From NCBI RefSeq assembly GCF_000147875.1, contig NC_014507.1:2046001-2110000 (forward strand): 64,000 bases of DNA. The letters run 5' to 3'. Below are positions 30,955-61,154 of the stretch, one piece after another (position 1 is the stretch's first letter; each line of letters starts with the position of its first letter). Source of the DNA: Methanolacinia petrolearia DSM 11571 (GTDB lineage Archaea > Halobacteriota > Methanomicrobia > Methanomicrobiales > Methanomicrobiaceae). The notes below the pieces were generated by a model. That model was not told where the DNA came from. It searched no databases and worked only from the letters and a program-made list of their open reading frames with translations. Position numbers and translations under genes: made by a program.

Positions 30955-31461
30955 ATGGTCGAGAACACGATGGAAGAATCAAAAAAGCCTGAATTGAAGG
31001 GAATAAATATCGGAATTGGCGAACTGAAGGTAGGAGGTTTTGTAATGACTTCCATAGGCCTTGGATCGTGTATAGCTGTCGTTCTGCACGATAAAAAAAA
31101 GGCTGTAGGCGGCGTTGCTCATGTCATGCTCCCCAACAGCAATGACAAAAAAGACAGGCCGGGGAAATATGCAGATACGGCTGTTCCCGAATTACTTGGA
31201 GAGCTGATTGCCGAAGGAAGCAACAAGAGGGATATCATTGCAAAAATTGCAGGCGGATCAAGCATGTTCAGGCAGTTCAAGGGGAACCTTGATATTGGCG
31301 GAAGAAATATCGAAGCTGTTAAGGAAGCACTGAACATGAACAGAATTCCTCTGGAAGGTGAAGATACCGGAGGAAATGTCGGAAGATCAATTATGTACGA
31401 TCCGGGCCAGAGTGGTGTTATTGTAATCAGAAGGGCGGATGGTACATGTATAAATATCTGA
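30955..31461 (+). CDS. cheD: Chemoreceptor glutamine deamidase CheD
   Basis: The 168-residue protein has the CheD catalytic motif GLGSCIAVVLHD (Cys) and a downstream histidine in GGVAHVMLPNS. CheD deamidates receptor glutamines and interacts with CheC for adaptation. The start could be the ATG at 30955 or the one at 30970, as neither has a strong ribosome binding site. The 3' end overlaps the following propeller gene by 16 bases. Confidence 0.92.
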   Translation: MVENTMEESKKPELKGINIGIGELKVGGFVMTSIGLGSCIAVVLHDKKKAVGGVAHVMLPNSNDKKDRPGKYADTAVPELLGELIAEGSNKRDIIAKIAGGSSMFRQFKGNLDIGGRNIEAVKEALNMNRIPLEGEDTGGNVGRSIMYDPGQSGVIVIRRADGTCINI

Positions 31462-32534
31462 TTTTGCTTTTTCTTTCAGCTTTACTGGCATTTAACCCCG
31501 TATCGGCAGAACTTGTCCAGTTCTGGCCCGATTCAAACTCCATAAGTACTGCGGATGTCAGGGATATCTGCGACGGAACAAACGAAAGAATTATTTTCGC
31601 CACGTCAAACGGGATCTCGATATATGATAATGAAGAATGGAAGATTCTTCACGCTCTTCCCACGGACAAAAGAGGATATCTTGAAGGCATACCTCTGAAC
31701 GACTACGTTCTCCAGGCAGAATATGATTGCCTGAACAACCTGTGGATTGGATACAGCAATGGCATACAGATCTACAACGGTTATTCGAAACCGGTAACGA
31801 TCAGGCAGGTCGATGACGTTTTAGTGGACACTGCGATCAACAAATTAAAACGCCAGGGAAGGATAATATGGATTGCAACGGGGGATTCAGGTGTTTATTA
31901 TTATTTTAACGGCAGATTTGGATGGGTAAAACCCGGAGAAGAAACCGGTCTTCTCGGGAACCATATCAATGACATTGAGGTGGATTACGCAAACGATATC
32001 CTGTATATGGCATCCGCTTCAAAGGGTCAGTTTTCATATGACGGAGGTATAGAGGGGCTCGACAACATAACATTCAAACAGATAACCGATCCTCTCATTG
32101 CAAAAGATATGACGGAGATTGCTTCATATCCATACGGGGGTGTTGTATTCTTCAACAAAACCGATGCAGTTTACTATAACGAATTGTCAGGGGCAGAACA
32201 TATCTTCAACGTTAAAGATCTCTCAGGCGGTACAAATAAAATATATGACCTGGCAGTTACAAATGACGGCAAATATGTAATAGGAACCAACAACGGTATC
32301 TTCTGTTGGTATAAAGGCGAGGTCTGCAGGCACCTGACAAGATTTGACGGTCTGTCTGATTATAAAGTTGATAAGATATACATCGATGATTCCGGCAGAT
32401 GGTGGTTTTCAACAAAAGAGACCGTAGGTTACTACTATGAACCGAAGTTTACTGCCGTCTCTTCCATTGAGATCAATCCCGGTTCTTTCGGGCAGGATTC
32501 TACGATTATCAATAATGTTTTTTCGAGTGTCTGA
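31446..32534 (+). CDS. Exported beta-propeller protein at the end of the che operon
   Basis: The 362-residue protein has an N-terminal signal peptide (MYKYLILLFLSALLAFNPVSA) and repeated propeller blades typical of the two-component-regulator propeller (ligand-sensing) type, for example FATSNGISIYD, WIGYSNGIQIYNG, WIATGDSGVYYY and VIGTNNGIFCWYKG. It has no kinase domain and no second membrane helix, so it is probably an exported or envelope-bound sensor. The start lies inside cheD (16-base overlap), which indicates coupling to the taxis operon. A role as a ligand-binding partner of a receptor is possible (inference). Confidence 0.75.
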   Translation: MYKYLILLFLSALLAFNPVSAELVQFWPDSNSISTADVRDICDGTNERIIFATSNGISIYDNEEWKILHALPTDKRGYLEGIPLNDYVLQAEYDCLNNLWIGYSNGIQIYNGYSKPVTIRQVDDVLVDTAINKLKRQGRIIWIATGDSGVYYYFNGRFGWVKPGEETGLLGNHINDIEVDYANDILYMASASKGQFSYDGGIEGLDNITFKQITDPLIAKDMTEIASYPYGGVVFFNKTDAVYYNELSGAEHIFNVKDLSGGTNKIYDLAVTNDGKYVIGTNNGIFCWYKGEVCRHLTRFDGLSDYKVDKIYIDDSGRWWFSTKETVGYYYEPKFTAVSSIEINPGSFGQDSTIINNVFSSV

Positions 32535-32574: not shown

Positions 32575-32874
32575 TATTACTTACATACCTTACTTGGGCG
32601 ACCCCGTCACCGGCGGCCAGGTCCGCCGGACTGCCCCTACCCAGGGGCCTTACCTTAAGATAGCTCTCTCACGGCACGCTCAGGGGACCGGCAAGGGTCC
32701 CCTAAGCTGTTGAATTTGTTTTTATTCCTTCCGTACACACCATGAGTTTACCGCGTCCCGCCGCTCAGGGGATTCTTGTCTATCCCCTGTGCGGCCTATC
32801 ACAATTGAGAGGCCCCGAGGTCGGGGCCGATCCGCGAACCTGCTGTGCGGTTCGCGGCGAGGGGTTGTCAAAGA
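32575..32874. repeat. Structured repeat, family 1, copy 1
   Basis: This GC-rich element of about 300 bases is repeated at 50031-50340. It contains several hairpins: GGCGG/CCGCC near 32612, GGGGACC/GGTCCCC near 32683-32702, a CAGGGGA/TCCCCTG hairpin at 32766-32788 and CCGCGAACC/GGTTCGCGG at 32832-32857. Copies differ by base-pair-preserving changes. It lies between the ends of two convergent genes. No protein coding is evident; it may be a non-coding RNA, a terminator array or a mobile-element remnant. Confidence 0.75.
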
Positions 32875-33051
32875 TGTACTTTTGGATTATCTGTTTAGAG
32901 TTGTTTAATTCCCTCATAACGGCATACAAAGCTGGTGTCAAATGTTTATGAAACAAAGATTCTATTCGGAGTATCACAGACTGAAAAAAAGTTCAATATT
33001 CAATTATCGGTTTAAATAAAATTCAACTTTGAGAAAATTTCAGCAGGTTGT
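32875..33051. other. Intergenic remainder before the TPR-like gene
   Basis: AT-rich sequence without a gene. It contains GTTTATGAAACAAAG at 32944-32958, which is found again at 40054-40068 as part of a palindrome. Confidence 0.4.
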
Positions 33052-34248
33052 TTATTCCTGTATTTTGATTACCTGCATCGCGTATTTGTCAATGGATTCA
33101 AAAAATGCATTCTTAGAAGTCTTATGTCTCAGAATATCATCATCGGAGAATATATCGTTCATAAGATAATCAAGTGCAACCAGGTAGAAATGAAGGGATT
33201 TAAACCTCTTCTTTAACTGCTTGAACTGGAGTTTTGCCTCACGCTGCTCACCACGCATAACGAATATAGCAAGATCGAATAACTGAACCAGGTAATTAGG
33301 CATTCCTTTTTCCAGCGCCTTGTCACGGAATTCATTGTAAGTACTCTTGCTGTTTGAAAGCAATGACAATTTGATTCCGTAATAGAACGGCTCAAGACTG
33401 TTCGGATTCTGCTGTATCATCTGTTTTACAATGCCGGCAGCGCCGACACCGTCTCTTTTTTCCAGTTTCAGGTAGAAATTCTCCCTCAGGAAGTCCTGAT
33501 CATTATAGAACTTATCAACGGCATACGCAAGGAACTGAAGCCTTTTTTCTTCATTACCATTGTTTTTGGCCTTTTCGATCCCGATTTTTACGTACCACCG
33601 CTCATTAGGGAACCACTCGAGCGCTTTCTTAGTCATCAGCCAGAATGCACGGTCCATTGATTCCGTATCTTTAATATCCAACTGTTTGAAGCGGTTTACG
33701 GAAGGTTTTACCTTGGCCATCTCAAGGAGGGTCTCTCTTGCCTGAAGTTCAAGACGACTCGGCCGATCGTCTATTTCCCCGTGAAGAGCCTTCTTCTCAT
33801 TTCCGGAGAGAGCGTAATAGCAGTAAGCAATATACATGCCTATCCTGGCATCGTACTTCCAGTAATCACTGAAATAATCAATCGCTTCCCTGTACCTGCC
33901 GATATCCATCATCTTGACGCCCGAGAGAATCCTCAGAGTGGATCTGCCGGATTTTTTCTTCTTGCATCTCAGGGCGTTGGATATTATTTTTTCGATGAAT
34001 TCAACGGATTTAGCCTCGGGACTCGCTTTCATAATGCGAAAAGAGATATCGTCGATGAAATTGTCATATGAGTTGTTGTCAATATCAGGAAATGCATTAT
34101 CGAGTGCAGACATTACATGGCCATAAAAAACAGGGATATTGGATGATATCTTATCCGGGTTGCTGTCGATGTATAAAAAAAGATCATTCTTCAGGACATC
34201 AACCTTTTCATACCTTATGGCATCCGTTAATTTCTCCCCACGAGGCAT
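33052..34248 (-). CDS. TPR-like helical repeat protein of unknown function
   Basis: The 398-residue all-helical protein has TPR-like units (for example GVKMMDIGRYREAIDYFSDY and PNSLEPFYYGIKLSLL) but no recognised family or catalytic motif. It is hydrophilic, cytosolic and rich in Lys, Tyr and Phe. The ATG at 34248 is preceded by GGGTGGAT. It lies 49 bases downstream of the ABCE1 gene on the same strand, so co-transcription with this translation factor is possible. A scaffold role is likely from the fold only. Confidence 0.65.
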   Translation of the reverse strand: MPRGEKLTDAIRYEKVDVLKNDLFLYIDSNPDKISSNIPVFYGHVMSALDNAFPDIDNNSYDNFIDDISFRIMKASPEAKSVEFIEKIISNALRCKKKKSGRSTLRILSGVKMMDIGRYREAIDYFSDYWKYDARIGMYIAYCYYALSGNEKKALHGEIDDRPSRLELQARETLLEMAKVKPSVNRFKQLDIKDTESMDRAFWLMTKKALEWFPNERWYVKIGIEKAKNNGNEEKRLQFLAYAVDKFYNDQDFLRENFYLKLEKRDGVGAAGIVKQMIQQNPNSLEPFYYGIKLSLLSNSKSTYNEFRDKALEKGMPNYLVQLFDLAIFVMRGEQREAKLQFKQLKKRFKSLHFYLVALDYLMNDIFSDDDILRHKTSKNAFFESIDKYAMQVIKIQE

Positions 34249-41752: not shown

Positions 41753-41890
41753 GGGCATAAGCCCCCTCCGGGGGCAGCCCCAAACGCAAATTTTCGAGGA
41801 GCAGGAGGGGATGCTTGTCCATCCCTGACTGCGACCTATCGCAGTGAGGGGGAGGGTCATAGGGAGGGGGAACCCTCCCCCTTCCTATAT
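41753..41890. repeat. Structured repeat, family 2, short copy
   Basis: The copy begins with GCATAAGCCCCC and a CCCC/GGGG hairpin, then runs through GGAGCAGGAGGGGATGCTTG, a CTGCG/CGCAG hairpin and the terminal hairpin with GGGAGGGGG and CCCCCTTCC. It lacks the central part present at 41944-42240. It lies between the convergent CYTH and phosphoesterase genes. Confidence 0.7.
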
Positions 41891-41943
41891 AACAATAAAA
41901 CCTGAAATTTTTCCAAACCATTGAAATTTAAAAAATATTTCCC

Positions 41944-42240
41944 AAAGGCAACCCTTGCGCAAGTTCGCTCCGCTTACGCTTCGCGAACACGCCCTAACCT
42001 CAGGGCTTTGCGCTTGCGATAGCCCGTCCTAGGCGCTACCCATTCGGGTAGCCCCGGCCGGGGGAGAAAACTTTTGGAAAACGTAAAACAAGGTATAATG
42101 GATAACCATAGATCATCCCCGATTTTGAAACGATAAAAAAGAAAATTCACGGAGCCGGAGGGATGCTTGCCCATCTCGACGGCGACTATCACGACGAGGG
42201 GGAGGGTTATAAGGAGGGGGAACCCTCCCCCTCCTTATAT
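41944..42240. repeat. Structured repeat, family 2, long copy
   Basis: The element of about 300 bases begins GGCAACCCTTGCGCAAGTTC, has GCGAACACGCCCT and CTTTGCGCTTGCGATAGCCC, a TTTTGAAACGA segment, GGAGGGATGCTTG and a perfect terminal hairpin. It is homologous to 60781-60970. It contains no plausible gene. Confidence 0.7.
42208..42239. terminator. Perfect 13-bp hairpin ending the long repeat copy
   Basis: TATAAGGAGGGGG pairs exactly with CCCCCTCCTTATA around the loop AACCCT. The equivalent hairpin in the short copy (near 41859-41889) keeps the stem with a G-T wobble. The position between convergent gene ends suits a bidirectional terminator. Confidence 0.5.
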
Positions 42241-49217: not shown

Positions 49218-49892
49218 ATGCCTGAAGAAAAGCCCGTTATAATGATAAACTTCAAGACCTACAACGAGAGTTACGGTTTCAGGGCTCATGACATTGCCGA
49301 GGCAGCCGAGACCGTAGCGGAAGAAAGCGGCATTGAAATCGTAATCTGTCCCGGATTCATGGATATACACCCGATGTCAAACCATTACCGCCTGCCTGTC
49401 TTCGCCCAGCATATAGACGGAATCTCGCCTGGCGCACACACGGGGCATATCCTTGCCGAGGCAGTAAGAGCGGCGGGAGCTACGGGCACGCTTATCAACC
49501 ACTCGGAGAGAAGACTGACTCTTGCGGATATCTCCGCGGCTGTGGACGCAGCAAAAAGAGCAAATCTGAAGACCGTAGTCTGTACAAACAACACAGCGAC
49601 GAGCGGAGCGGCGGCGGCACTCTCTCCCGACTACGTGGCTATCGAACCGCCGGAACTCATCGGCAGCGGGATTTCGGTTGCAACGGCAGACCCGGAAATA
49701 ATCGAAAATTCGGTAAATGCGGTAAAATCAGTCAACAAAGATGTCAAAGTCCTTGCAGGTGCGGGAATCAGTTCGGGCTCGTGTGTCAAAAGAGCTGTCG
49801 AACTCGGCTCGGACGGGGTACTGCTCGCATCGGGGGTCGTTAAGGCCGAAGACCCCGCAGTGGTCCTGAGAGACCTTGTCTCAAAGATCTAA
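49218..49892 (+). CDS. tpiA: Triosephosphate isomerase, archaeal type
   Basis: The 224-residue enzyme interconverts dihydroxyacetone phosphate and glyceraldehyde 3-phosphate in gluconeogenesis/glycolysis. It has INFKTY (Asn and Lys), catalytic His in LINHSERR (about residue 95) and Glu in IEPPELIG (about 140). The short length is typical of archaeal tetrameric TIM. It starts 15 bases after MBF1, so both are probably co-transcribed. Confidence 0.96.
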
Positions 49893-50030
49893 AAAAATAT
49901 GGCTCTTCGCTGTTTCATGTGGGTAAATAATTTCGAGATCCCACACATCCTCACATAAGTTAGGAGCCAGCAAATCCTTCGCATTTTCTTTTCTTCACAT
50001 ACATTCGGATACACATACATGGCACTGTCA

Positions 50031-50340
50031 TATTGCTTACATACCTTACTATACCTTACCCTGGCAACCCCGGCACTGGCGGCCAGGCCGCCGGACGGCC
50101 ACTGCCCAGGGGCCTTGCCTTAAGATAATCTTCTCACGGCACGCCCGGGGGACCGGTGAAGGTCCCCGGGCTGTTTTTTTTGGTTTTTTGCATACAAAAC
50201 ACACGTTGTGATCTTACCGCACCTCGCCGCTCGGGGAATACTCGTCTATCCCCTGAACGGTCTATCATCATAGAGAGGCCCCGAGGTCGGGGCCGATCCG
50301 CGAGCCTGCCGTGCGGCCCGCGGCGGGGGGTTGCCAAAAG
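50031..50340. repeat. Structured repeat, family 1, copy 2
   Basis: Homologous to 32575-32874 over the whole length: TTACATACCTTACT, GGCGGCCAGG, CCCAGGGGCCTT, CTCACGGCACGC, GGGGACCGG, TCTATCCCCTG, GAGAGGCCCCGAGGTCGGGG and CCGCGAGCC are all shared. The stem after CACGGCACGC is perfect here (GCCCGG/CCGGGC). It lies between convergent tpiA and the HTH-CBS gene. Open frames over it (for example 50134-50337 minus) are shadow translations. Confidence 0.75.
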
Positions 50341-50402
50341 TAGCGAAACTTGTTTTTATATCCAAAAAGATTAACGAAGAGCCAAAAAATATCAAATAAT
50401 AT

Positions 50403-50997: not shown

Positions 50998-51307
50998 GAG
51001 TGGGAGTAATAAGCCCCATTTTGTTCCGACAACATTCAGCTTTGCGCCATACCCGGAACCGGCCCGGAAATGCCGTTATGTTCCTGTTTGGCTTGCTCCC
51101 CCGGGGATTCGCCGTTCCATCGCTTCCCCTGGTCCGATAGCACCTCAGGAGATCCGCTCCATCACAGGTTAAACCAGGGGCCGTGTCGTTTCTGTGCCAG
51201 CGCCGCGACTCTCGCCGCCTGCATTTGCATGCAGCCGGGTCTCCGGCCGGAGTGGGGACTTTCCTCAGCGGCAACTTGATGCCGCCGTCAGCTGTCCTCT
51301 CCCTCTC
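50998..51307 (-). ncRNA. rnpB: RNase P RNA, archaeal type
   Basis: The minus strand carries the hallmark blocks of RNase P RNA: GAGGAAAGTCCCC near the 5' end (51254-51266), ACAGAAACGACAC in the middle (about 51182-51194), GCAAGCCAAACAGG (51083-51096) and a 3' AACAAAATGGGG. The ends pair as helix P1: GAGAGGGAG (51307-51299) with CTCCCACTC (51006-50998), with one mismatch. It processes the 5' ends of tRNA precursors. Promoter: TAATATATA about 23 bases upstream of the 5' end (see 51327-51337). The exact ends are estimated from P1. Confidence 0.93.
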
Positions 51308-60374: not shown

Positions 60375-60530
60375 ATTAATGTCCATACAAAGATCTAAAA
60401 AATTTTTCCCAGATTCCTTTGTAGAATCCGGTCAGTAGTTCCATGAACCCTGCGATTTAAAATAAACATACTTTAAGAGCAGGAAGGAATTTTCCTCTTC
60501 TTTTTAATCAAGAGCCTTCCTGAATTTTTT
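60375..60530. other. Intergenic stretch after modC
   Basis: No gene seen. AT-rich with a T-rich tract at about 60499-60505 that may end the modABC transcript. Confidence 0.35.
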
Positions 60531-60720
60531 AATGGCATAAGCCCCTAACGGGGCAGCCCGGACGCAGGATTGCTAAGCAACCTACGCAATTGAAATAGCC
60601 CGGCCTCCGGCCGGGAGAGATTAACTATCGGAACATAACCCGGTTGTTGAGAGTTTTGAAACCGACAACAAACCATTCACGGAGGAGGAGGGGAGGGGGA
60701 ATCGTCCCCTTCCCTTGTAT
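60531..60720. repeat. Structured repeat, family 2, third copy
   Basis: It begins GGCATAAGCCCC with a CCCC/GGGG hairpin, then ATAGCCCGGCCTCCGGCCGGG (a 7-bp hairpin), AGAGATTAACTATC, GTTTTGAAACCGAC, ATTCACGGAGGAGGAGGGG and a terminal GGGGGAATCGTCCCC hairpin. It shares its central part with 60852-60926 in the next copy. Confidence 0.7.
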
Positions 60721-60780
60721 CTGACTTGATAGTAATGTTTAGATCTTTACCTGAATCTTAAATTGGATAGACTCCCCCAA

Positions 60781-60970
60781 GTGGCAACCCTTGCGCAAGT
60801 TCGCTTCGCAGGCTCAGCGAACACGCCCTGACCTCAGGACTTTGCGCTTGCGATAGCCCGACCTCCGGTCGGGAGAGATTAACTGTCCGAAACATAATCC
60901 GGTTGTTGAGAGTTTTGAAACCGACAAAAATCCATTTTGGAGCAGGAAGGGATGATTTCCCCCTCCCTAA
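60781..60970. repeat. Structured repeat, family 2, fourth copy
   Basis: It begins GGCAACCCTTGCGCAAGTTC as at 41947, continues GCGAACACGCCCTGACCTCAG and GCGCTTGCGATAGCCC, and then has CCCGACCTCCGGTCGGG, the compensated version of the hairpin in the previous copy, followed by GTTTTGAAACCGAC and TGGAGCAGGAAGGGATG. It is convergent-intergenic like the other copies. Confidence 0.7.
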
Positions 60971-61154
60971 ATCTTAAATTAGTGATAAAAGTCCTTCAAA
61001 GAATTCAAGTCCTGAAGAGATATCTGGGCACATCGCAGGTATCCCCTGAGCAGAGAGATACAGAAGACTAACATCCGTCAAATGAATTCAGAATATCACA
61101 ATTTTCAAAGCTGATCGAAAAATGAAAAATAAAAGATTAATTTGAAAAATTAAA
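60971..61154. other. Intergenic tail before the surface protein gene
   Basis: Nothing convincing is seen beyond AT-rich sequence with small inverted repeats; likely 3' region of the convergent surface protein gene. Confidence 0.3.

Follow-up and report, generated by a model that had tools for sequence, protein, structure and literature searches.

A MITE/BIME-like mobile repeat of inverted twin modules in Methanolacinia petrolearia, with an apparently selected fold and a putative RNA role

Is a structured sequence of some 300 bases, which recurs at a distance of 17 kb, an RNA gene, a mobile element or something of both? The window in which the question arose is the whole stretch of DNA analysed, 64,000 nucleotides of Methanolacinia petrolearia DSM 11571 (NC_014507.1, positions 2,046,001 to 2,110,000). 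A first-pass annotation of it, made from the letters alone, aligned positions 32575-32874 with 50031-50340 along their full length, and realignment bears this out, with a homologous core of ~273 bp at 32597-32869 (copy 1) and 50063-50335 (copy 2). Both copies are real. However, they are just two of 40 loci in the genome, and the family is far larger than the pair first reported. The genome searched was that of M. petrolearia (formerly Methanoplanus petrolearius) SEBR 4847, 2,843,290 bp in one contig (PMC3035365), where BLASTN with the 300-base repeat gave 59 matching places that merged into the 40 loci; the sister species, a second Methanolacinia, has 54 matching places by the same program. 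The survey of relatives that the first-pass annotation had proposed, by nucleotide and covariance-model search, thus did yield a family, with 40 loci here and dozens in the sister species.

What had been overlooked is that each copy consists of two homologous halves in inverted orientation, as is evident from model cross-matches and from alignment of their consensus sequences. In a multiple alignment of 64 full-length copies the two modules are conserved, at 88% and 86% mean identity, with the linker at 66% and the flanks loose. Each module is of ~120 nt, the 5′ module being read on the minus strand and the 3′ module on the plus strand. Aligning one module consensus with the other gives a score of 29, against 10 +/- 2.6 for shuffles. 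A covariance model made from 3′ modules only (R1) detects 5′ modules on the minus strand with E 2e-4 to 2e-9, and its counterpart made from 5′ modules only (R2) detects 3′ modules on the plus strand with E 8e-8 to 3e-10. In order, a module consists of hairpin A, with the hexaloop CUYGYC, hairpin C (GGCCCC…GGGGCC), hairpin D and the 3′ end GGGGUUGYC; a small hairpin B is clear in the 5′ module only. The features of the two window copies are:

32597-32869: copy 1 core, two inverted homologous modules and a linker, without recognisable inverted ends
32597-32713, minus: copy 1 5′ module; R2 118.2 bits; R1, the other module's model, 36.9 bits, E 7e-8, same strand
minus: copy 1 5′ module hairpins, A′ ~32678-32707, C′ ~32632-32649, D′ 32610-32629
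32714-32748: copy 1 linker, poorly conserved (mean identity 66%; modules 86-88%)
32749-32869, plus: copy 1 3′ module; R1 143.6 bits; R2 43.2 bits, E 6e-9
plus: copy 1 3′ module hairpins, A 32760-32795, C 32811-32828, D 32832-32857, then GGGGTTGTC
49892-49900, plus: copy 2 left target-site duplication AAAAAATAT, from the sequence
49901-49927, plus: copy 2 left inverted end GGCTCTTCGCTGTTTCATGTGGGTAAA, ISL3-type; its first 26 bases match an autonomous ISL3 end at 24/26
50063-50177, minus: copy 2 5′ module; R2 122.1 bits; R1 23.9 bits
50215-50335, plus: copy 2 3′ module; R1 130.1 bits; R2 38.7 bits, E 8e-8
50359-50383, minus: copy 2 right inverted end GGCTCTTCGTTAATC..., from end comparison
50384-50392, plus: copy 2 right target-site duplication AAAAAATAT, from the sequence

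Besides scattered twin-module copies, tandem arrays and single modules also occur, and at one locus common to both species (L065, G000:C1:1688000-1697500, and L101, G001:C39) tandem arrays flank genes for an AAA protein, an MCP and CheR on both sides. Beyond the genus the DNA search returned fragments only, and with R1 a module match was found in 7 of 185 genomes of the order.

Is the fold under selection? Both copies, on either strand, fold far better than dinucleotide shuffles (z about -4.7 to -6.5). The initial argument for selection compared just the two copies, and it needs pruning. In the stem around GGGGACC, where two pairs were said to have changed on both sides, one T-A pair has indeed become C-G, but the pair beside it is mismatched, C-A, in copy 1, and at a further site an A-T lies opposite a bulged G, so that ‘two pairs’ comes down to a single clear case. 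In the 3′ stem CCGCGAACC/GGTTCGCGG the change of an A-T pair to G-C stands, but the next A-T is A-C in copy 2, which had escaped notice. With many copies, where a lack of covariation above background would have told against a selected fold, the signal is well above both shuffles and slid controls: the two modules have 11 and 8 doubly changed pairs against shuffled means of 3.5 and 2.9, with no shuffle out of 500 reaching the observed number (sets of 32 and 29 representatives, whose relatedness inflates such counts), and the signal is lost when the control structures are slid. A global covariation scan of all column pairs had a best E of 0.75 because hypervariable flanks dominated the null, hence the targeted tests. 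These used local hairpin pairs; a long-range fold of the whole element was set aside as evidence, since inverted homology between the halves can by itself give rise to it. The repeat family, its inverted modules and their covariation are well established.

As relatedness inflates the count of doubly changed pairs, a second test was made on wobble pairs. Among tree-mapped changes at Watson-Crick pairs, those to G-U, as read on the module's own strand, number 110 and those to A-C 47, a bias moderate in size and based on parsimony reconstruction; equivalent changes at unpaired sites are 202:168 (paired-site excess p 6e-4), and restriction to pairs predicted on both strands leaves 82:38 (p 0.0045). 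Since the two modules lie on different strands, mutation biased uniformly towards one strand cannot account for the excess. The bias towards each module's own strand suggests a single-stranded fold, probably of RNA, and together with the doubly changed pairs supports the original proposal that the fold is selected. A coding reading was rejected, there being no conserved reading frame among the aligned copies. That no RNA family of this type was known holds for Rfam 15, in which no family is above its gathering threshold; at gathering and permissive thresholds alike the repeat has only chance matches, and a tRNA/tmRNA search found none. The sole Rfam family found in the window is archaeal RNase P RNA, an ordinary gene near copy 2 (50998-51307, minus; RF00373, 200 bits).

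How did so many copies arise? A subset is bounded by inverted ends GGCTCTTCG... with target duplications of 8-9 bp, of which ATAAAATT, AGCAATAT and TTTTATTT are perfect at 8 bp and several others have one or two differences; copy 2 has the 9-bp AAAAAATAT on both sides. Around copy 1, at 32577-32893, there are no inverted ends. For one sister-species copy an empty site is at hand, as its joined flanks, 460 bp, are contiguous in M. petrolearia (G000); of the four sites tested, two more are filled in both species, and so is that of copy 2. In a sister genus (G007) an ISL3 element of 1,351 bp has perfect 8-bp duplications, and its ends match those of the repeat at 24/26 on one side and about 22/25 on the other. 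The published ISL3 transposon Tn7546 has ends GGGTCTTCGGA and an 8-bp duplication, resembling the ISL3-type ends of the repeat in both end sequence and duplication length (PMC9782665). No ISL3 transposase (PF01610) was found in the three Methanolacinia genomes G000, G001 and G002, one of them 84% complete; it is present in G007, G012, G011, G005 and G123. A RAYT/IS200 origin was rejected, as the Y1/RAYT transposase (PF01797) is absent from these genomes, and a viral carrier was sought with two sequence patterns, neither of which gave a match.

It is likely, judging from ends, duplications and the empty site, that a subset of copies, copy 2 included, are ISL3-type MITEs, spread by an ISL3 transposase. 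The first-pass annotation had recognised that copies being transposons would count against its RNA family, and for this subset that is in part what they appear to be; a stand-alone RNA family is therefore not established, and the repeat is to be seen as mobile with a selected fold. With ISL3-family MITEs it has in common inverted ends GGCTCTTCGCT..., AT-rich duplications of 8-9 bp, no reading frame and an empty site in a relative. However, ordinary MITEs need only their ends, whereas the M. petrolearia repeat has an internal covarying twin-module core that is also found without those ends.

Where the copies lie, and what has happened to them there, are further clues. Copy 1 sits between convergent genes, 31446-32534 (plus) and 33052-34248 (minus). 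Of 80 loci, 39 are between convergent, 30 between tandem and 11 between divergent genes, as judged with a simple longest-ORF caller; the 39/80 compares with 8 convergent pairs among 55 gene pairs in the window. Orientation of the element in tandem contexts has no clear bias with respect to the flanking genes (17 same, 13 opposite). Such intergenic placement fits tolerance of insertion as well as it fits 3′-end function. At 23 of the 40 loci both flanks match one sister-species locus, with flank identity mostly 88-97%. At such shared sites core identity is ~88%, where paralog medians lie near 84%, and of 12 same-direction cases only 3 have the positional ortholog as the closest core. In 5 of 21 cores examined the core is flipped between collinear flanks in the two species: L083 compared with window 32597-32869, which is copy 1, and also L078, L094, L099 and L103. 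Simple one-time insertion does not account for the low identity of these cores or for their flips, and this tells against the explanation favoured below, as do the lack of a consistent orientation in tandem contexts and the restriction of inverted ends to some of the copies. Candidate routes of core turnover may be gene conversion, replacement, repeated insertion or inversion via the terminal inverted repeats.

That explanation, to which a probability of roughly 55% may be given, is of a MITE/BIME-like structured repeat, dispersed in part by ISL3, whose fold is selected and has a role at RNA 3′ ends. Copies with ISL3 ends would have been amplified in trans by an ISL3 transposase that was later lost from these species, and the core would be an older unit, found as well on its own, in tandem arrays and within other shells. 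In read-through transcripts from flanking genes the modules would fold as single strands, most likely RNA, and could then act as 3′-end structures that stabilise ends or limit convergent read-through, a role that would make their insertion tolerable. The verdict, drawn from comparative sequence evidence, is of a fold that is real and selected, in a MITE/BIME-like mobile repeat whose RNA role is putative.

The repeat joins a known class of small mobile structured repeats as a further member. Like REP/BIME sequences (GTAG/CGTC REPs, PMC3733652), it is extragenic and structured, and occurs in inverted pairs and clusters, often between convergent genes; inverted structured units in extragenic space are the REP/BIME-like feature present here. 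However, REP units are of 20-40 nt (PMC3733652), whereas the modules here are ~120 nt with several hairpins, and REP/BIMEs are tied to a Y1/RAYT transposase, of which these genomes have none. Also MITE-like and intergenic, and in some cases with conserved secondary structure, are bcr1 and its relatives in the Bacillus cereus group, about half of which are transcribed, often within UTRs (PMC3446304). From these the repeat differs in domain of life, sequence and architecture. We know of no bcr1 arranged as inverted twin modules. For archaea the gain is a well-supported structured mobile repeat whose fold selection, strand preference, transposition vehicle and placement are all readable from sequence.

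Might the structure instead act as DNA, with hairpins or cruciforms that are bound by a protein, flag terminators or supercoiling sites, or have a part in recombination, roles proposed for REP/BIME? Unlikely though it is, this is the rival that survives best. Both strands fold well, the modules are laid out as inverted twins, cores at shared sites are paralog-like and sometimes flipped, and, as DNA in vitro, related G-rich repeats form a hairpin, triplex or G4 (PMC8044849). Against it, the wobble bias goes with whichever strand a module is read on, which is unexpected for a duplex cruciform, and the Y1/RAYT transposase of a single-strand DNA route is lacking.

A second rival, distinctly improbable, is a neutral decaying MITE, with palindromes kept tidy by template-switch correction or by gene conversion between arms or copies, and no function at all. 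MITE ends with target duplications, the near-equal resemblance of shared-site cores to paralogs and orthologs, and the free divergence of linker and flanks speak for it; it sits badly with the own-strand wobble bias, with modules at 86-88% identity against 66% for the linker, and with conservation into other genera of motifs outside stems, namely the hexaloop, UAUCRC and GGGUUGCC. A longer shot still is that the 120-nt module is a new Methanomicrobiaceae class of RNA that drives its own spread or replacement, in the form of folded RNA or ssDNA that homes into fixed sites between genes, or converts or inverts there, and was later captured by ISL3 ends; if true, such a self-spreading module would account for cores that are flipped, or little alike, at shared sites. 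Improbable too is a new RNA family in which every module is a functional gene by itself and MITEs carry it only occasionally since, for all the strong covariation, conserved loops and diverged single modules in other genera, copy number is very high in one genus, most genomes of the order lack it (7/185 have a match) and a non-systematic check identified no promoter. Concerted evolution of such repeats, or their inversion in place, becomes directly testable through the flipped, paralog-like cores.

R1 also finds diverged modules in other Methanomicrobiaceae and within the window, here called type 2:

41947-42073, minus: type 2 module (GCGCA...GCCCTGAGGTTAGGGC...GTTCGC...TTGCGCAAGGGTTGCC); R1 23.8 bits, E 2e-4; motif match
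60783-60884, minus: second type 2 module; R1 27 bits, E 3e-5; motif match
41787-41874, plus: companion module that shares the hairpin A motif and has CTATCGC, then a G-quadruplex-type repeat; R1 12.1 bits, a weak match

Type 2 retains UAUCRC, hairpin C with GAGGU, and GGGUUGCC. It has 20 matches in the M. petrolearia genome, and elsewhere was found in Methanomicrobiaceae only, in a GTDB-wide scan that left out near relatives. Its companion module bears the hexaloop hairpin together with a G-rich tract in agreement with the recurrent G-quadruplex sequences known from Methanomicrobiaceae: the motif GGGGGAGGGTCATAGGGAGGGGG at 41848-41870, followed by a C-rich tract, corresponds to the published rPQS of Methanolacinia (PMC8044849). 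Is the main (type 1) repeat then an rPQS? That identity was rejected, as the motif, four G-runs then a C-rich tract, is in none of the 64 type 1 copies on either strand. Like the repeat, rPQS are intergenic, about half of them between convergent genes, and belong to the same archaeal family, and the convergent, tandem and divergent proportions of the repeat loci are close to those given for them; in the window they are part of type 2 elements. So far as the accessible portion of that source goes, an rPQS is a short G/C-rich tract, and modules, covariation and mobility do not figure in the description (PMC8044849). The known G-quadruplex repeats of Methanomicrobiaceae are thereby placed inside larger related elements.

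A near-copy of the 41848-41870 motif, with AAGGAGGGGG, lies near 42199, and the regions 41760-42235 and 60530-60985, both between convergent genes, are packed with type 2 modules, including GGGCATAAGCCC palindromes. Related modules occur at L150, L155 and L159 (G007, G012), with an expanded short repeat, CAGCAAATACAA, inside L155. Three loci of G009 (L032, L036 and L038) have single diverged modules in elements whose inverted ends seem different, approximately GTAGTATCCCGATTCATTTTACA with GGGACAGCA on the other side.
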